From a virus, in the IMG/VR virus record IMGVR_UViG_3300021475_000047, positions 1 through 28,162 of that record: a stretch of 28,162 nucleotides of DNA. One strand, given 5' to 3'. Positions 17,209-27,496 of this stretch are shown in pieces. Every line of letters starts with the position of its first letter. Position 1 is the first letter of the stretch. The translations under genes were made by a program, and so were the position numbers. Under the pieces are notes generated by a model that was not told the DNA's origin, searched no databases, and worked only from the letters and a program-made list of their open reading frames with translations.

Positions 17209-17474
17209 GGCGGGCGCTGTCAAGGAGGCAGCGTGAGTGTCTGCTCTGGATTGCGCGCGGGAAGACGTATGATGATATAGCAGCTATTGAGAAAATTTCA
17301 TTCTCCTCGATTAAAAATTATCTGGATAATGCCAGACACAAGCTGAATGCAGTTAATTTGCCGCAGGCTGTAGCCATCGCTGTGGCTACAGGTGTTCTCA
17401 AGTTTGACGAGCTGCATATTGAAGATAAATCTATTTCCCAGGTCTATCCTCCAAGAGACATCATGTCAGTCTAA
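17205..17474 (+). CDS. Stand-alone LuxR/GerE-type HTH regulator
   Basis: 89 residues; the ATG overlaps the preceding stop codon. Residues about 4-65 match the LuxR C-terminal HTH: LSRRQRECLLWIARGKTYDD, then IAAIEKISFSSIKNYLDNAR, HKLNAVNLPQAVAIAV. The four-helix pattern with the E11 / G19-K-T / I25-A / SSIKNYL recognition-helix positions is conserved. There is no receiver or autoinducer-binding domain; the remaining ~24 residues are unlike known sensors. It likely binds DNA as a dimer. As the last gene of the structural cluster, tail to tail with the replication operon, it could control late or lysis genes or a host promoter. The target is unknown. Confidence 0.75.
   Translation: MRRALSRRQRECLLWIARGKTYDDIAAIEKISFSSIKNYLDNARHKLNAVNLPQAVAIAVATGVLKFDELHIEDKSISQVYPPRDIMSV
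17368..17391 (+). repeat. Perfect 9-bp inverted repeat in the HTH gene
   Basis: 17368-17376 pairs perfectly with 17383-17391 around a 6-nt loop. Intragenic. Confidence 0.55.
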
Positions 17475-18653
17475 ATCGGATAGACTTTTGCCAGTTACAC
17501 GCCAAGTTTTATCGTCTTTCCGAGCTATGATACCGCGAGCTATTAGATTGTTAATTATGTAAGGAATGACCTGTGTCTTGACCATTCCGCTAAGCCAGCC
17601 ATTGAGGAAGTTGTCTGTGATGGGTTCGCCCTTGCTCATCTTAACTAGCATGGCAGCGTAAAGTTTGCGGATTACGCGGATCTCTGACTCGCCCTTTGCG
17701 CTGTTGAAGGCGTTGGGCATCACGCCCTCGACCTCCAGCAGCCATTGGAGGGCGCGTTCTACATGGGTAAGCTCGATTGTCATGGATGGACCTTCACTCA
17801 TTGAAGCTATCATGGACAGTTTCATTAGGAATTGGGTGCGCGAAGTGTTGTAGTTTTTCAGGTCCTCGTGGACTGGGCGAGGCTGTCCGCCGTCTTTGTG
17901 CCACTTGGTGAGAAAGTCTTTGGATGCCTGAGCCCATTCCATCTCACCACAGATCATTCTAATCTCACCGAGGCGTTCACATATGCTCCGTTGAAGATCT
18001 AAATTGATTGAAGGAGCATTGAATGGAGAGATGCGGTCGGCTACTTCGTTCCAGACGAGAATGGAGCGACGAAGAAAGCCCTGGTCTTGAGCATCCTTCA
18101 TCAAAATCTTCTCCAGCAAAGCTGGCTGATAGCCGAAGAGGGCCGTGATGAGTGGGTAGTCAATTTTGATTTCGCCACTCTTACGCCGACGCTCCTTGAA
18201 ATGGGGTGGGGCATCGTAAATAGTGGTGAGGAATGCGAGAATGTCAGCCTCGAATTTTGAAAAGGAGTTGGAGAACTCCTCGATAGGCAGCAAGAGATTA
18301 TGATATTTGAAACCAGTTGGACCGTGGTCCTGAGAGGCGTTTTCCAGGGCGTCGAAGAGGGCGGCCTTAGTGGAGTCATTCGCCCCTGAGAAGAATGCTG
18401 GCGCGTTCACGTCGTCGCGAGCCATGTCCCATAGATCACGGACTACGTTGATCACACTTTTGCCACTGCCTGGAGGGCCAACCAGCATTACGTAGAGATT
18501 TGCATAATTGGTATCCCTGCCTGCAACAGCCCTGATGCGGCGCTCCATTGCCCCGCCGACCATAGTAATGGCACACCATTTACGATATAGAAGACAAGAC
18601 TGCATACCTTCAGTGTATGCCATGAATTGATCGACCAAATCCCCAGATGGCAC
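17466..18653 (-). CDS. DUF3987-type AAA ATPase (helicase/primase-module protein)
   Basis: 395 residues. The GTG at 18653 follows a purine-rich AGGGAGGGTAGG ribosome region. Walker A is GPPGSGKS (59-66) and the Walker B-like strand is NLLLPIEEF (119-127). Further matches to the DUF3987 pattern are CAITMVGGAMERR, LFGYQPALLEKIL and a QGFLRRSILVW arginine segment. The C-terminal ~70 residues look like a winged-helix (INNLIARGIIARKDDKTWRV). DUF3987 proteins are phage and mobile-element replication ATPases usually next to primase or polymerase. No separate replicative helicase or primase is in the window, so it may serve that role. It ends tail to tail with the HTH gene, the two stop regions overlapping by 9 bases. 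Confidence 0.7.
   Translation of the reverse strand: MPSGDLVDQFMAYTEGMQSCLLYRKWCAITMVGGAMERRIRAVAGRDTNYANLYVMLVGPPGSGKSVINVVRDLWDMARDDVNAPAFFSGANDSTKAALFDALENASQDHGPTGFKYHNLLLPIEEFSNSFSKFEADILAFLTTIYDAPPHFKERRRKSGEIKIDYPLITALFGYQPALLEKILMKDAQDQGFLRRSILVWNEVADRISPFNAPSINLDLQRSICERLGEIRMICGEMEWAQASKDFLTKWHKDGGQPRPVHEDLKNYNTSRTQFLMKLSMIASMSEGPSMTIELTHVERALQWLLEVEGVMPNAFNSAKGESEIRVIRKLYAAMLVKMSKGEPITDNFLNGWLSGMVKTQVIPYIINNLIARGIIARKDDKTWRVTGKSLSDLD
17468..17489 (+). terminator. Weak terminator at the end of the rightward cluster
   Basis: A 6-bp AT-rich stem (17468-17473 with 17481-17486) is followed by TTTT reading rightward, partly inside both stop codons. Weak by stem length but rightly placed for ending the structural transcript at the convergent junction. 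Confidence 0.3.
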
Positions 18654-18668
18654 GACAACCTACCCTCC

Positions 18669-20201
18669 CTACAGTCGTTCTAGGCCTGACGGCCTAGAAC
18701 GCCTGTCATGCGTTCCCCTCCTCCATTTTAATAGTCCAGCTGGATTGCCTTTCGATTCAGGTGCCCAATTCCATCCTACTTTAGCAGCCCCAGGCGCGAC
18801 ATAAGTTCGTTGACCCTTCGGGTCAACGAGCCTTATGTCATTCAACAGAGCTAAAGTAGAAGTGATTAATTCGTCTGGATCTGGATCATTCTCTCTGAAT
18901 TGAAATGTGATGGAGTCGTGTGTCTGCGCGAGGAGCTGAATGCGATCTCCAAGTCTGGCCCACGCCATCCAAAGCCAGAGATTTGTGCGCTCAGCTGTCA
19001 TGTTTTGGGGGACGAAAGCAATCGCCTCCCGTAATGTGGCGTCGCTTCTATGGTCCCCAAAGAAGTGACGCTGACGCCCGAATGGGGTCGTGATGAAGCC
19101 CTCGACTTGGAGCCGGTCAGCTATCCAGTTCCAGTATTGTCTGAGGGCTGGATAGGCTGGGCGGATGTTGTTTCGGATGTCGCCCCGACAATATCTGGCT
19201 TGGAACTCCACGCACACTTTCATGGGGAGTTTCAGGACGCGGCTCATTGTCCATGCAGTGCCATTGTAGTTTGTGAGGTGGCCTCCCCGCTTGGCCAAGT
19301 CGCGCATTGTCCAGTCTCTGTAGACGGGAATGCGTTCAGCCAACTGGCGGCAACCAGCGGGATCTGCAGGCCAAGGCTGATCCGGCCATATAAGTCTGCA
19401 GTTGTTGGTGTGGAAGTCTCCCGACTCGCAAGAGTCCAGGAGAGACCAATCGCCAAAAAGTACCCCACAAAGAAAGCCAACGTCACGAGCCTCCACTTGT
19501 TCGAGGTCAATGGAGCAGAGTTTCCAGCCTGGATCAGAGATGAAAACGCGGCGCAGTTCTGGTGCAATGTTTTGAGCGTTGCCTCCAGTTCCAAGGACTG
19601 AAGTTGAAGAACTAAGGCGACCCGTCTCAGTTCCTCCAATGTTATAACTGGTTCTGTGTCTTCCGTCTTCATCTATCTCCTCCGTTAGGACATCCAACTG
19701 CTTGTAGAGATCGCGGCATGAAAGGATGAGGGAGACAATTGGCCGAGCATACATATACTCGTCTATCTTCTCTAGGGCCTCCCGATTGACTGACAGCCGC
19801 CGCTCACCCTTAAAGGATAGCCATATCTCGGGAATCTTCATTGTCTTATAGAAGAACTCGGACAACTGGGTGTGGGAGCGGGGGTTAAGTTCTTTGCCCC
19901 AGACGTGCTGGGCGAGTATGTTTAGCACTTGACGGGACTCGGCCACCTGCTGCTTGACTTTAAGCTCCATCCGGTGCCGATCAAGACCATCTATGAGGAA
20001 GCCGTGGAGAGCCATCTCCAGGAGGGGGGCTTGAAGCGCCCGCTCGAAGGAGTAGATTGGCTCCGCACCGCCCGGATGTTCCTTGTTAATGTTCTCCAAA
20101 ATCTCGAGAGTGAGCATGGAGTCGAGTGCGCAATAGGTCTGGTGTTGCTCCTCTGTATTCAGCTTGCCAGGTTCTATCGTAGCTGTCTGGATGACTGGCA
20201 T
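18669..20201 (-). CDS. DNA polymerase I-type core (family A) carrying the ExoIII motif
   Basis: 510 residues; its ATG overlaps the DUF1937 stop codon by one base (TAATG). Residues 23-27 (Y-C-A-L-D) followed by TLEI are the ExoIII motif of the 3'-5' exonuclease, so this ORF begins inside that domain. Polymerase motifs follow: TGRLSSS (193-199), motif A SIDLEQVEARD (230-240) with D232, motif B R300-x3-K304-x3-H308-x3-Y312-N-G, and motif C THDS (427-430) with D429. The O-helix position that is Phe/Tyr/Leu in studied enzymes is His308, and the Glu after the motif C Asp is Ser430. It works with the upstream UDG-exonuclease gene, which has ExoI and ExoII. The frame is the same as that gene but separated by the DUF1937 gene. 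Replicative polymerase role is likely. Confidence 0.85.
   Translation of the reverse strand: MPVIQTATIEPGKLNTEEQHQTYCALDSMLTLEILENINKEHPGGAEPIYSFERALQAPLLEMALHGFLIDGLDRHRMELKVKQQVAESRQVLNILAQHVWGKELNPRSHTQLSEFFYKTMKIPEIWLSFKGERRLSVNREALEKIDEYMYARPIVSLILSCRDLYKQLDVLTEEIDEDGRHRTSYNIGGTETGRLSSSTSVLGTGGNAQNIAPELRRVFISDPGWKLCSIDLEQVEARDVGFLCGVLFGDWSLLDSCESGDFHTNNCRLIWPDQPWPADPAGCRQLAERIPVYRDWTMRDLAKRGGHLTNYNGTAWTMSRVLKLPMKVCVEFQARYCRGDIRNNIRPAYPALRQYWNWIADRLQVEGFITTPFGRQRHFFGDHRSDATLREAIAFVPQNMTAERTNLWLWMAWARLGDRIQLLAQTHDSITFQFRENDPDPDELITSTLALLNDIRLVDPKGQRTYVAPGAAKVGWNWAPESKGNPAGLLKWRRGTHDRRSRPSGLERL
18676..18701 (-). repeat. Perfect 11-bp hairpin at the 3' end of the polymerase gene
   Basis: 18676-18686 pairs perfectly with 18691-18701, 4-nt loop. 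It codes for the last residues (RSRPSGLER), and the stop codon at 18669-18671 and the AGGGAGGG ribosome site of the next gene follow. No T-run. It may be a weak terminator or regulate passage to the ATPase gene. Confidence 0.6.
18807..18829 (-). repeat. Perfect 10-bp inverted repeat in the polymerase gene
   Basis: 18807-18816 pairs perfectly with 18820-18829, 3-nt loop, coding for LVDPKGQR near the polymerase C-terminus. Confidence 0.65.
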
Positions 20202-20593
20202 TAGAGCATTCTTGTCCAGTTCAGAATTACCTCATCCCCCTGATATGTAGGAGGCGGATCGAGCGCCCATACTGGACAGCCAATTACCTTGCTGTAGTCA
20301 AGTTCTTTGCGCACGCCTTTTGATTGCGCCCAATTAGGGAGGCAAATGAGGATCACTCCTCTGGAGCGGAATATCATGTGGCGGTTATGTTCATTCCAAA
20401 ACTCAGCGTCTGTTGGCATGTTATATGTTTGCGCCATGTCATGATAGTGAATGATGGGAGCATATATAGTGAGTTTTGTTCTTGTTAGAAGGGCTGCTAT
20501 AGCTAAATGCTCTTTGTAACGCTCCGGTATATTGTCGGAGTATGGGCCGGCCATATACCAGTAACCTTCTCCTGGTGTGGGGTGATCATTCAT
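20201..20593 (-). CDS. DUF1937 / nucleoside 2-deoxyribosyltransferase-like protein
   Basis: 130 residues. Motifs follow the DUF1937 pattern: YMAGPYSDNIPERY (13-26), IYAPIIHYHDMA, DAEFWNEH, and VILICLPNWAQSKGVRKELD (80-99) with a Glu at position 97 placed as in related deoxyribosyltransferase-fold proteins. The fold family binds nucleotides or sugar-nucleosides; DUF1937 has no assigned reaction that I can state. It starts 8 bases inside the upstream UDG-exonuclease gene (ATGAATGA) and its stop codon overlaps the polymerase start (TAATG), so it sits precisely between the two halves of a polymerase. A nucleotide-metabolism role is possible. Confidence 0.75.
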   Translation of the reverse strand: MNDHPTPGEGYWYMAGPYSDNIPERYKEHLAIAALLTRTKLTIYAPIIHYHDMAQTYNMPTDAEFWNEHNRHMIFRSRGVILICLPNWAQSKGVRKELDYSKVIGCPVWALDPPPTYQGDEVILNWTRML

Positions 20594-21752
20594 CTAATTT
20601 CTCCCCTTTTACTTTAGTTGCACGATGCCGACCCATCAGCTTCCAGCTGGCCTCATTGGTGTAGATGGAGCCAAGGAAACCGAGACTCTTCTGCACTTCT
20701 GGGTAGAGGGAATGGTGCAGGAGCATGGTGTCCTCGCGGGCATGTCGCAGGTTAAAGCCCATGCGGATGAAGTACTGCATGTCATACATGCCGTTCTGAA
20801 AGACGAGAGGTCTTCCACACTCTAAGAGAGCTTGAACGTATTTCCAGGCTTGAAGCTCGTCTTCAAGTCTGGTCCAGTAGTTGCGGGTGCCATCTTTGGA
20901 TCGGAATGGAATAGTGATTGCATACTGGGAATTGTGAGCGAAGCTGATACAGGTGATTAGCGGGCCTGCTGTCTCACAGTCTACGGCTAGAGGAGATGCC
21001 CAAGAAATAACTCCATGAGTGAAGCCTTCGACTTCAGCTAGTGTAGGATTGATTATAGCTCTGCGCTCGGGCCGGACTACTCGGGGGTGGGATGTTTCGC
21101 GCCAGGCCTTTAAGAAGTCGGCCATGCAGATGATACGCCACTCCCTACGCCCGCGTCCCGGCAATACGGCTGAGGGGTGATAGGTGGGGAGGACTTTTAG
21201 TCCCGGAGCAACCCCTCCTTGCGAGCCCATTGTCGCAGTTCCACGGACATTGCTAATGTCAGATCTTCCAAGGAGCGCCCAGGTTGCGATAGCTCCAGCT
21301 GCAACAATACATGTCGGCTTGCTGATGGCAAGTTCGTTGCGTAGACGTTCAAGCTCACCGAGATATTCCGCTTTGAGGTAGGCGAGCTTCCCTCGCCCGA
21401 GCGGGGGTATTTGAGGATAGTCATTTGGAAGCTCCTTCTTAGAGCAGAGGAGGAAGTCGAAGTCATTGTTTGGTGGACGAAGTGCGGCCACATTCGTTAA
21501 GCCGATCCCGGCCTCCTTAGCCCATACGTTCCGCATCTGGTGCCATCCGCTTCGCGCAAGCGCATAGCGGAAATCAGCTGTGTATTTGTTTGCTGGAATT
21601 GTCTCTAAGAGGATGCGGGAGAGTTCGGCTCCGGCTACTCCGCAGAAGGGGATGCCGCCTAACTGTTCTTCAGACTCGCCCCACGCTTCGCCAATGATAA
21701 CTAGGCGCGGTTCACGGGAGCCAGCCCATCCTGAGAAGGGCGGCCGAGTCAC
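20586..21752 (-). CDS. Uracil-DNA-glycosylase-like domain fused to the first part of the polymerase 3'-5' exonuclease
   Basis: 388 residues, GTG start overlapping the methyltransferase stop codon (GTGA). Residues 1-215 are a UDG-superfamily domain: GEAWGESEEQLGGIPFCG (21-38) matches the active-site motif GEAxGxxE...G-x-PF-x-G-x-AG, and YHPSAVL (191-197) matches the HPS motif. The four-Cys iron-sulfur pattern of family 4 is not seen. Residues about 240-388 are a DnaQ/Pol I-type exonuclease: ExoI D258-x-E260 in AVDCETAG, and ExoII N320-x3-D324 in FQNGMYDMQYF. The ORF stops after KVKGEKLDE, before the ExoIII motif, which is on the polymerase gene. UDG-polymerase fusions are known in phages; a split at this point is unusual. 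Confidence 0.8.
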   Translation of the reverse strand: MTRPPFSGWAGSREPRLVIIGEAWGESEEQLGGIPFCGVAGAELSRILLETIPANKYTADFRYALARSGWHQMRNVWAKEAGIGLTNVAALRPPNNDFDFLLCSKKELPNDYPQIPPLGRGKLAYLKAEYLGELERLRNELAISKPTCIVAAGAIATWALLGRSDISNVRGTATMGSQGGVAPGLKVLPTYHPSAVLPGRGRREWRIICMADFLKAWRETSHPRVVRPERRAIINPTLAEVEGFTHGVISWASPLAVDCETAGPLITCISFAHNSQYAITIPFRSKDGTRNYWTRLEDELQAWKYVQALLECGRPLVFQNGMYDMQYFIRMGFNLRHAREDTMLLHHSLYPEVQKSLGFLGSIYTNEASWKLMGRHRATKVKGEKLDE

Positions 21753-23125
21753 ACGTGGACTCGGTCGTGAGCTTCTGCGTTTACGCGGAAGCTAAGGAGC
21801 GACTCTCGTCCGACCGAGACGAAGCGCTCCTCAATCTCCAGACCGAGGACATTTTGTGGTAATGCACCTAGGCTTTCGGCGGCTCTGAGGGAGGAGGCTG
21901 CTCCGCAAGTGGGGTCTAGGAAGCGGGTGTTTCCGTCGACCAGGGCTCCGAAGAAGTGGCGAAGCATCGGCTCTGGTTTGCAGGATGGATGGAGCCTGCG
22001 GTCGCCCGGACCTGAATAGGAGTCTGCTACGGTTCGGACGAGGGGACGGCGACCTCGATAGGCGAGAAGGGCTGTCTCGTATGTGTGGCGAGGCCACCGC
22101 TGGGAGTCACCGACTATGCCGCTGTTGTCCGACTTGTGCCAGATGAGAGGGTATGGGTAGAATTCTATGCTGGGGCCTTTAGTCTCGAAGAGGCGAATGG
22201 TCTTTAGCATAACGGATGGCTTGGGGCTGAGCCAGAACATTATGTGACCGAGGGGGGATAGGAGATGATCTAGATTTTTGATTAGACACTCCGTGAGAGC
22301 CCAGTAGTCGGTGGCCTGGTCGGAGTAAGCGCCCTCTTGGTCTTCTGGTTTGAACTGGCCTGCGCCGTCGAAGACGTTCGCGCCATATGGGAAATCGCAG
22401 TGGATTAGGTTGAATGTGGTGCCTGAGTAGGTTGATGCCCAATCGAGGAAATTGTCAAGTTTGATTGAGCGTTCCACTGATTGGCGGGACCATGTCACTT
22501 CGACGGACTCAGGTGCGGGTTGAGTTTGGGGGGTTATTATGCCCTGTGTAATGGGGGACGGCTTGCCCTGGACTGTTACCATTTCGCGGGCGAAGACAGC
22601 CATGTCGTTTATTTCAGCTTCGTCCTCTCGCTCTTTCCGGCGGCGGATGAGGTTGCGAGCCTCGTTGACGGAGGCTGCTTTGGCTACGCGAGGATCTTTT
22701 AGGTGGGTGGCGACGAGGAGGGTGTTGGAAACGTGGCCTGTATCAAGTGACAAAGCGTCGGCAGTCATTCTCTGGTTCCATGCGGGGTCATTCTTGCCGT
22801 AGAGGTAGTGGAGTTCCGCAATGGCTCGTACAGAGTCTTGCCATGAGAGGTCTTTGCGCTTGATGTTCTCTTCAAGCTCGATGACTTTTAGCTCGTCGAT
22901 GTTCAGATCGTCTACCCAGCGGACTGGGATGGTTGGGAGGTTGAGTGCTTTGAAGGCTTCCCATCTGCGCTCGCCTGCTATAAGCTGATAGTCTTTGGTG
23001 ATGATGATGGGGTTGATGAGGCCCACTCGTTTGATGCTGGCCTGGAGTGCGGGGTCTGGCTCTAGCTTTCGGCGTTGGCGGGAGTCTCGTTTGACCCAGA
23101 TGAGGGAGAGGGCAATGTCAGGCAT
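21749..23125 (-). CDS. ParB-like domain fused to DNA methyltransferase
   Basis: 458 residues. Residues 1-110 are a ParB/Srx-fold domain: SIKRVGLINPIII, YQLIAGERRWEAFKALN (47-63, with the GERR motif), VIELEENIKRKDLSW. Residues about 110-170 resemble the helical ParB region (TADALSLDTGHVSNTL). Residues about 215-458 are a beta-class amino-methyltransferase: catalytic motif IV as DFPYG (244-248, DPPY variant), HPSCKPEP (379-386), and AdoMet motif I as FLDPTCGAASS (402-412). The order (catalytic motif before AdoMet motif) fits N4/N6 MTases of the beta type. It lacks a partner endonuclease here. It could methylate phage DNA against host restriction. It overlaps both neighbours (8 and 4 bases). A GC-rich hairpin with one mismatch lies at 21771-21792. 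Confidence 0.8.
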   Translation of the reverse strand: MPDIALSLIWVKRDSRQRRKLEPDPALQASIKRVGLINPIIITKDYQLIAGERRWEAFKALNLPTIPVRWVDDLNIDELKVIELEENIKRKDLSWQDSVRAIAELHYLYGKNDPAWNQRMTADALSLDTGHVSNTLLVATHLKDPRVAKAASVNEARNLIRRRKEREDEAEINDMAVFAREMVTVQGKPSPITQGIITPQTQPAPESVEVTWSRQSVERSIKLDNFLDWASTYSGTTFNLIHCDFPYGANVFDGAGQFKPEDQEGAYSDQATDYWALTECLIKNLDHLLSPLGHIMFWLSPKPSVMLKTIRLFETKGPSIEFYPYPLIWHKSDNSGIVGDSQRWPRHTYETALLAYRGRRPLVRTVADSYSGPGDRRLHPSCKPEPMLRHFFGALVDGNTRFLDPTCGAASSLRAAESLGALPQNVLGLEIEERFVSVGRESLLSFRVNAEAHDRVHV

Positions 23126-26024: not shown

Positions 26025-26227
26025 TTGGACGTTTCCTTTGGCAGTTCATAGTGGCAGGTGATTGGGATGCAGTGGAGGCCGTGTTGCTTGGCATCCAGGA
26101 TTTCTTCTGAGGTAGGCCATCCGAGAAAAAGCTGCCAGCATTGAGCAATGCTCTCGTAGAGGCCAATATGGATCAGCGTGCAGTTGCGGGTGTCGTAAAT
26201 CCCATATGGCTGAAGCTGCTTGTTCAT
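26021..26227 (-). CDS. Small protein of unknown function
   Basis: 68 residues; the ATG at 26227 overlaps the stop codon of the nuclease gene (TAATG). Four Cys/His-type residues (NCTLIHIG, AQCWQLF, GLHCIPITCHYEL) give it a Cys/His-rich look but no clear zinc motif. The frame is open upstream of this ATG, but coupling favours this start. Confidence 0.55.
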   Translation of the reverse strand: MNKQLQPYGIYDTRNCTLIHIGLYESIAQCWQLFLGWPTSEEILDAKQHGLHCIPITCHYELPKETSK

Positions 26228-27195
26228 TAGCGGGGCTCCCCGGCTGGGTCCCAACGACGGATCTGGAATGTGGCGTCCATGATTGGTTTGCGAGCTAGCG
26301 GGCTTCGTCCGCAGATTTCACGGAACTGGCAGCCGCCATAGAGGCCGCAGGCTTTGTCATTCTGGGGATAGGCGGCCTCGGGATTTGGCATGGGCTCAGC
26401 TACCACGGCGCAGCTTTCCATGAGGGATACCCAATAGGGGAGGGCTTGGAGCCACTCGTCCAGGACGGGCTGGGGGCGGTAGACGGGGAAGCGCTGGAAA
26501 CGGACGAAGTTGACGCCAATCTGGGCAGCGTCGAGGAGGATACCACGGGCAGGGACGCCGAGGGCGACTCGGCCCGCGATGGTGTAGAGAGTGAATTGGT
26601 TGTCGGGGGTGAAGCGTTCAGCGTATTTGGAGCTGATGGCTTCCAAGGTGGTCTTTAGGTCGGCAATGAAAATATCGTCGTTAAATGCTACGAGGCGGTC
26701 TATGTGGCCGCATAGTGAGATGATTTCGTTGGTCATGGAGCGGAAGCCAGCGTCGAACAGGAATGTCAGTTCGACTGCCGGCTTGCCGTTTTCGAGCTGG
26801 AGGGTTTTGAGTGGGGAGCCCTGCTTCTCGTAATGGTCCAGGTATTCGACGGCAAACCTTATGAGAGATAGCCGGTTTTTCTGAGGATCATCAAATGAAG
26901 GAGCGTTAGCTTTGTAGTCCCAAGTACCTGAGAGGGCTTTGACGACTGTGGCTTCCAGGGCGTCTTCGTGCCCCACATCCTGGGATCTAAGACGCTGGTA
27001 ATTTTCTGAGACATGATGGGCTGCTGAACCGAAGTCCAGATGGATTTGAACGCCGATTTTTGTGTAGCCGCAGACAATGGAATAGTAGTAGTAGCGGGCG
27101 CATTGTTTGAACGCGCCCAGGGAAGTGGAGTCGATTGAGGTTTGGAAGCGGGGTAGCTTCTGAGAGAAGCTTTTATTATTTTCCCAATTCTGCAC
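26227..27195 (-). CDS. PD-(D/E)XK RecB/Cas4-like nuclease
   Basis: 322 residues from the GTG at 27195, just downstream of a purine-rich AAAAGGGGCAAGAAG region and 27 bases after the tRNA 3' end. An upstream extension of the frame would run through the tRNA and is rejected. Motifs: GHIDRL (163-168) and IADLKT (177-182, D179 and K181), with QFTLY (200-204) as the QxxxY motif, typical of RecB-family PDDEXK_1 enzymes. Cysteines at 32 and 283, 289, 295 (C-x5-C-x5-C) match the layout of the [4Fe-4S] cluster in AddB/Cas4-type nucleases. Together with the Sak4-like ATPase it forms a recombination/end-processing pair. Length is normal for such phage proteins. Confidence 0.8.
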   Translation of the reverse strand: MQNWENNKSFSQKLPRFQTSIDSTSLGAFKQCARYYYYSIVCGYTKIGVQIHLDFGSAAHHVSENYQRLRSQDVGHEDALEATVVKALSGTWDYKANAPSFDDPQKNRLSLIRFAVEYLDHYEKQGSPLKTLQLENGKPAVELTFLFDAGFRSMTNEIISLCGHIDRLVAFNDDIFIADLKTTLEAISSKYAERFTPDNQFTLYTIAGRVALGVPARGILLDAAQIGVNFVRFQRFPVYRPQPVLDEWLQALPYWVSLMESCAVVAEPMPNPEAAYPQNDKACGLYGGCQFREICGRSPLARKPIMDATFQIRRWDPAGEPR

Positions 27196-27222
27196 TGTCT
27201 TCTTGCCCCTTTTGCTTATTTT

Positions 27223-27312
27223 TGGCGGAGAGGGAGGGATTCGAACCCTCGGCACACTTGCGCGTACTCCGCATTTCGGGTGCGGTGCGATCGACCACTC
27301 TGCCACCTCTCC
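27223..27312 (-). tRNA. tRNA-Ser(CGA) with encoded CCA and C33
   Basis: 90 nt. Acceptor stem GGAGAGG / CCTCTCC, discriminator G, and encoded CCA. The anticodon stem CCGCA/TGCGG is perfect around the loop CCCGAAA, giving anticodon CGA (decodes UCG), with C at position 33 instead of U. The variable arm is long (class II, TACGC GCAA GTGTG with G-T pairs) as expected for Ser. T stem GAGGG/CCCTC with TTCGAAT is perfect. The D stem GCA/CGC has one A-C mismatch. The 5' end lies one base after the stop codon of the upstream CDS, so it must be cut from a polycistronic transcript. Confidence 0.9.
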
Positions 27313-27313
27313 A

Positions 27314-27496
27314 TTACTCGGCTGCCATTTCGATTGGAGTTTGGGTGACCTCGAATGTGATGACGATGCGGCCAGTGTGTGGGTCATGGGCGATCAGGAG
27401 GTCGTTTTCAGCAATGATCAGGCCATGTTTTTCGACGTGGATGCTGATGGGTATGCGGAGTGTTTTGGTGAATTGTTTGAATAATTCTTCGATCAT
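27314..27496 (-). CDS. Small protein of unknown function
   Basis: 60 residues from the ATG at 27496, with GGAAGGG six bases upstream; an ATG at 27511 adds five residues and overlaps the previous gene. Contains IEELFKQFTKTLRIPISIHV and beta-strand-like LIIAENDLLIAHD and GRIVITFEVTQ. It ends two bases before the tRNA. No motif recognised. Confidence 0.55.
   Translation of the reverse strand: MIEELFKQFTKTLRIPISIHVEKHGLIIAENDLLIAHDPHTGRIVITFEVTQTPIEMAAE

Follow-up and report, generated by a model that had tools for sequence, protein, structure and literature searches.

Several phage enzymes are known to be encoded in pieces. In the T4-like Aeromonas phages 25 and 44RR, the family-B polymerase gene 43 is divided into gp43A and gp43B, and the two chains of phage 25 co-purify with polymerase activity (PMC2988022). 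The nrdA gene of Aeromonas phage Aeh1 was split by insertion of mobE, with full activity kept (PMC2988022). In the OM43 phages MEP401 and MEP402, a family-A polymerase is split within its polymerase domain, an arrangement shared by most of the group I relatives of MEP401; an intron was suggested, not shown (PMC10580990). Here, we describe a family-A polymerase gene (polA) that is cut inside its 3'-5' exonuclease. It lies in a viral sequence of 28,162 nucleotides (IMG/VR record IMGVR_UViG_3300021475_000047, positions 1 to 28,162; the window, hereafter). On the minus strand, an upstream gene (20586..21752) encodes a putative family-4-like UDG domain with exonuclease motifs ExoI and ExoII (the exo half), and a downstream gene (18669..20201) encodes ExoIII and the polymerase (the pol half). 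Between them sits a DUF1937 gene (20201..20593). We consider it highly probable that this polA is a gene in pieces, encoding a two-subunit polymerase that occurs naturally and shares its proofreading site between chains.

The window resembles each of these systems in part. Like gp43A/gp43B, whose halves are separated by an inserted homing endonuclease gene or an untranslated spacer, it encodes a phage replicase in two pieces; however, the gp43 proteins belong to family B rather than A, occur in few phages, and are not known to divide an exonuclease site between chains. Aeh1 NrdA is also a genes-in-pieces enzyme, made by insertion of an HNH gene, but it is a ribonucleotide reductase and represents one case, not an old clade. 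MEP401, MEP402, and Vibrio phage VS-ABTNL-3 share with the window a family-A polymerase in two open reading frames (ORFs) with a small ORF between; unlike in the window, the cut in MEP401 (PMC10580990) and in VS-ABTNL-3 (tested here) falls before motif A, leaving the exonuclease whole on the first chain. Intact UDG–exonuclease–polymerase proteins (MW202489, PP438425, and many IMG/VR contigs) have the same domain order, catalytic residues, and neighbors as the window, but are one chain, with 65 residues between ExoII and ExoIII and no extra tails. To our knowledge, family-A proofreading sites are known only within one chain. In an open literature library that lacks most subscription journals, we found no earlier account of a PolA cut between ExoII and ExoIII. 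Relative to known split enzymes, we found no report of an exonuclease active site cut between chains, of a split of this age and breadth, or of its recurrence at the same loop.

The catalytic motifs of the window polymerase are complete. The exo half carries ExoI (D258-x-E260, VDCET) and ExoII (N320-x3-D324, QNGMYD) and ends in a conserved basic/acidic tail, KGEKLDE. The pol half opens with a conserved N-terminal strand (MPVIQT), followed by ExoIII (Y23-x3-D27, YCALD) and intact polymerase motifs A (SIDLEQ), B (RDLAKRGGHLTNYNG), and C (QTHDSI). All DEDDy motifs are present but are spread over two polypeptides instead of the single one expected of a family-A DNA polymerase. Pfam and PHROGs searches identified UDG, DNA_pol_A, and DUF1937/nucleoside 2-deoxyribosyltransferase (NDT)–like domains on the window chains. 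The pol half matches DNA_pol_A (7.6e-26) and, in a profile search, Klenow and Taq; the exo half matches Pfam UDG (2e-13) and TIGR00758 (2.4e-13, under that model's cut-off). In phrog_17, a phage DNA polymerase family, the exo half matches model positions 549-798 and the pol half 808-1198, and these consecutive ranges indicate that together they make up one polymerase. Alignment to intact UDG–exonuclease–polymerase proteins places the join between ExoII and ExoIII. The loop concerned is flanked by 'YWKDE' (pattern 'WK..DE') behind ExoII and by 'EDQLW.YN..D' (pattern 'E(D/E)Q..YN..D') at ExoIII. When mapped onto the Klenow fragment by profiles, the exo chain runs to about fragment residue 122 and the pol chain starts around 169.

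We gathered relatives by searching IMG/VR with each half and with profiles, and named phages with tblastn. Each of the 110 non-redundant relatives in the sample has the split at this position, and the same cut in so many independent assemblies excludes chance. They include the Caulobacter phage Kuura, which has the same arrangement at 35-37% identity (tblastn) and two other small genes in the gap. Every locus with one half only was cut by a contig end, leaving at most 1.2 kb of room, and a scan of the genome collection found only five contigs from metagenome-assembled genomes. In a 115-row tree, the split members form one side of a single branch (Shimodaira-Hasegawa–like approximate likelihood ratio test support of 98), requiring one change. 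The other side holds a single-chain UDG–exonuclease–polymerase sister group, including MW202489 and PP438425, with the same neighboring genes: ParB/methyltransferase upstream of the intact polA and DUF3987 primase downstream. The phylogeny indicates that the split in the window clade is a clade-wide trait with a single old origin. The UDG-exonuclease half of Kuura (L001 7974-9083, WCD44107.1) is annotated as a hypothetical protein, and such mis-annotation of the exo half is likely common across the split clade.

Conservation extends to both chains. Among 97 full-length pairs, the ExoI Asp and Glu, the ExoII Asp, the ExoIII Tyr and Asp, the motif A Asp, the motif B Arg and Lys, and the motif C Asp are invariant, and the ExoII Asn is retained in 96. 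Every pair has the catalytic Asp in motifs A and C and the R/K in motif B expected of a family-A polymerase. Within the UDG domain, the HP motif is found in 95/97 exo halves and GEAWG in 58/97, where a GEAPG-like motif would be expected of this UDG family. Ratios of nonsynonymous to synonymous substitution (dN/dS) among close relatives were low for the exo half (0.09-0.13), the pol half (0.056-0.07), and DUF1937 (0.067), and the pairwise distances of exo and pol halves correlate (r=0.81). The dN/dS values leave out a comparison with the L025 exo half, which was in the wrong frame. The new chain ends also follow patterns: in 90/96 exo halves the C-terminus is D/E with a K close by (…KRDE), and pol N-termini across the split clade fit M-x-[IV]-x-T-x-x-L. 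From the ExoII Asp to the ExoIII Tyr, split pairs have 61 + 22 = 83 residues versus 65 in intact enzymes; the chain-end tails thus add ~18 residues in total over the intact loop. On this evidence, both chains appear to be selected as one enzyme. Some polymerase motifs vary within the clade. In 22/97 split polymerases (for example, L015), Tyr or Phe replaces the motif C His, and the pol half of L020 has an unusual motif A, DAKSGE.

The two halves are predicted to pack as one Klenow-like enzyme. For modeling, the window DNA was read through in the frame shared by the halves, with stop codons replaced by Gly, so that the wrong-frame DUF1937 region formed a 130-residue junk linker. AlphaFold2, given a 142-row alignment from which phages-collection rows were left out, returned a confident model of exo half, linker, and pol half (predicted template modeling score, pTM, of 0.85), in which both halves had a predicted local distance difference test score (pLDDT) of ~95, mostly >90, and the linker was disordered (pLDDT <50). 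As a negative control, we modeled the pol half with the product of the DUF3987 primase/helicase-like gene directly downstream (17466..18653, minus strand), which gave a pTM of 0.57. The ExoIII segment had a pLDDT of ~45 in this control versus ~89-97 with the exo half. Note that the control alignment, built from paired read-through rows, was shallower (19 versus 142 rows), and the difference between the two models should be read as suggestive, not as exact. The behavior of the control fits an ExoIII segment that may be ordered by its partner chain. Foldseek matches that covered both halves included Klenow (1kln, TM-score 0.77; 8oo6, 0.74) and a single-chain viral polymerase of 823 residues (TM-score 0.78), all target-normalized. 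By sequence and predicted fold, the pair would qualify as a family-A proofreading polymerase in all but the single-polypeptide feature.

The gap itself is highly variable. Its length ranges from 2 to 3,314 nt across the split clade (median 588), and in L081 a 'KRDE' stop is followed after 2 nt by the pol-half ATG, a split without any insert. The genes in the gap are diverse, and adjoining ones often overlap by 4 nt; they include DUF7768, DUF1937/DUF4406, pyrophosphatase/MazG, HNH, ribonucleotide reductase, ligase, and methyltransferase genes, along with many that are unknown. The commonest are NDT-like: DUF1937 occurs in 20/110 gaps, DUF7768 in 22/110, and either in 42/110. These two mostly lie directly before the pol half (for example, in the gaps of L027, L029, and L043) and were outside the gap in only two fetched loci. 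NDT-like genes also stand beside intact polA in the sister clade. The window DUF1937 protein scores 30.5 bits against a curated Pfam cut-off of 23 and belongs to phrog_355. Its gene is preceded by a clear Shine-Dalgarno (SD) sequence, aaaaggggag, and overlaps both neighbors. It shares an 8-nt stop/start overlap, ATGAATGA, with the exo half (20586..20593, minus strand) and a TAATG overlap of one shared base with the pol half (20199..20203, minus strand). These overlaps, the three ORFs, and the motif positions are exactly as given in an earlier, sequence-only reading of the window. The split junction is a cargo site, with DUF1937 as the most typical kind of cargo and not an obligate subunit.

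Other explanations of the locus can be weighed against these data. Because the source is a metagenomic contig, the split could in principle be an assembly or sequencing artefact, but we regard this as virtually impossible: the isolate phage Kuura has the same layout, and so do the independent assemblies L006, L008, and L009, whose pol halves show 72-95% identity. The halves might instead be joined, before translation or after it, by intron splicing, by split-intein trans-splicing, or by ribosomal bypassing of the gap. Phage polymerase genes commonly contain group I introns and inteins, and the window halves do share a reading frame, as the sequence-only reading had pointed out. That agreement is real but carries no meaning beyond chance, since frame offsets between the halves of 96 relatives are spread 26/39/31, so that only 26 of the 96 share a frame. 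Random offsets argue against any in-frame joining, as do gaps of such different lengths with unrelated genes and the SD sequences at the restarts in L205 and L261. An intron has been raised for the similar OM43 phage split (PMC10580990). However, Rfam covariance models for group I and group II introns had no match at the gathering threshold in the window or in 26 related loci, and gave nothing credible at a relaxed E-value in window positions 19900-21000. Nor did Pfam and NCBIfam scans of both halves match any intein model, and chain ends that exceed the intact linker by only ~18 residues include no extension of intein length. Joining in any of these forms is extremely unlikely.

The split could also have killed proofreading, leaving the pol chain as the working enzyme and the upstream protein kept for its UDG domain only or as a decaying relic. 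Exonuclease-deficient family-A polymerases occur naturally (Taq-like), and the exo halves evolve somewhat faster than the pol halves. Yet a relic exonuclease would be expected to lose residues over divergence down to ~37% identity, whereas the ExoI, ExoII-Asp, and ExoIII catalytic residues are invariant, and ExoIII, useless without its partner chain, is as conserved as the others. The sequence-only reading had offered such a loss by insertion as its alternative; with catalytic residues invariant on both chains, it finds no support, and we judge it very unlikely. It had also suggested that the DUF1937 protein is a stable third component. An NDT-like protein that links the two halves, or that keeps the nucleotide pool clean at the fork, would fit the frequent placement of such genes directly before the pol half, their near-absence elsewhere, the purifying selection on DUF1937, and its overlap with both neighbors in the window. 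On the other hand, 68/110 gaps have neither DUF1937 nor DUF7768 and the L081 gap is empty, so DUF1937 is not required; and since NDT-like genes also stand beside intact polA, the placement is explained by a nucleotide-metabolism gene that lies nearby. As a constant component, DUF1937 is rejected by the gap contents; a third-subunit role for an NDT-like protein is improbable.

Cuts in polA are not confined to the window clade. The same loop is split in single sister-clade lineages (L205, L244, L246, L249, and L261), and the tree requires five separate changes to account for them. The gap holds an HNH gene in L246, two small genes in L249, and a 27-codon remnant with SD sequences in L261; L205 and L244 have a bare stop and restart, with an SD sequence, GGAGG, upstream of the new ATG in L205. 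The loop between UDG and exonuclease is split with an HNH gene in L233 (679-3383) and L247 (3995-6666), to which the intact L197 is closely related. This insertion between UDG and ExoI appears very recent, and L197 is its natural before/after counterpart. Splits within the polymerase before motif A occur in L229, L234, L236, L239, L240, L242, L243, L265, and VS-ABTNL-3. This recurrent loop, also cut in L002, lies between NLQNIP and the strand before motif A, with HNH genes in L240 and L242 and an NDT-like gene in L265. In MW202554 (L181 1727-4364), polA is split at the exonuclease-polymerase boundary, with ExoIII on the first chain, and in Lactobacillus phage Semele (L186 3899-8235), the annotation gives the DNA polymerase as two pieces separated by a 972-nt ORF. 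HNH genes flank polA in L205, L208, and L221.

These loci bear on how the window split arose. As in other genes in pieces, one ancestral ORF has been divided, with an intact sister clade, a single origin, and a mapped join; the gap of the window holds DUF1937 and no homing endonuclease gene. The sequence-only reading had remarked on the missing homing endonuclease, which holds for the window but not for the polA splits of L020, L246, L240, L242, and L233/L247, all of which have HNH genes. Splits with HNH genes and bare stop/restart splits make two routes visible, homing-endonuclease insertion and simple stop/restart. By analogy, the founding event of the window clade was probably one or the other.

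We therefore return to the two-subunit polymerase. A natural enzyme that rebuilds its proofreading site from two polypeptides was the main proposal of the sequence-only reading, and deep conservation, invariant residues, purifying selection, co-inheritance, and the predicted joint fold all argue for it. The upstream gene would yield a UDG-ExoI-ExoII chain and the downstream gene an ExoIII-polymerase chain, both from the same polycistronic operon but each with its own translation start. We infer a non-covalent association of these chains into a single Klenow-like enzyme, to which the pol chain would contribute its N-terminal strand and ExoIII helix, completing the exonuclease fold; we propose that proofreading consequently needs both subunits. 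On this reading, the break sits between ExoII and ExoIII, in a surface loop that tolerates interruption. A single event at the base of the clade, probably the arrival of a homing endonuclease or a stop/restart in a polA that was until then intact, would have created it, and the clade would have kept it ever since. The junction would then have become an ordinary intergenic site gathering operon cargo, in the window the DUF1937 gene.

Some points weigh against this account. The fold comes from an artificially joined chain and not from a multimer predictor, intact relatives in the alignment could have taught the model the packing, and the pTM control rests on the shallower alignment (19 versus 142 rows). 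Among window-clade gaps inspected singly, an HNH gene was found only in L020, where it could be a later arrival, and a homing-endonuclease origin is argued from the sister clade. Re-fusion instead of repeated splitting could explain part of the sister-clade pattern.

The split polA and the DUF1937 gene lie in one operon. On the minus strand of the window, the order is ParB/methyltransferase, UDG–ExoI–ExoII, DUF1937, ExoIII–polymerase, and DUF3987 primase-like. The ParB-N and methyltransferase gene (21749..23125, minus strand) lies directly upstream, has a 4-nt overlap with the exo half, and is of the neighbor type found in intact relatives. Elsewhere in the window, a tRNA-Ser(cga) (27223-27312) falls within the 5' part of an ORF for a PD-(D/E)XK exonuclease (26227-27387), so the true start of that gene is probably further downstream.

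A widespread phage clade thus appears to build its proofreading site across two chains and to have kept this through deep divergence, while the same loop has been recut several times in the sister clade. Whether the split is adaptive is doubtful, but there is some chance that the UDG-ExoI-ExoII subunit comes and goes, with fidelity and uracil removal tuned by subunit supply and an NDT-like protein as optional partner. Because the exo half can be annotated as a hypothetical protein, as in Kuura, surveys of phage polymerases could miss such replicases or call them exonuclease-less. For the engineering of polymerases whose proofreading can be detached, the locus supplies natural split sites. It also makes the evolution of split enzymes testable: which loops tolerate cuts, how homing endonucleases start the process, and whether the outcome is neutral or useful.

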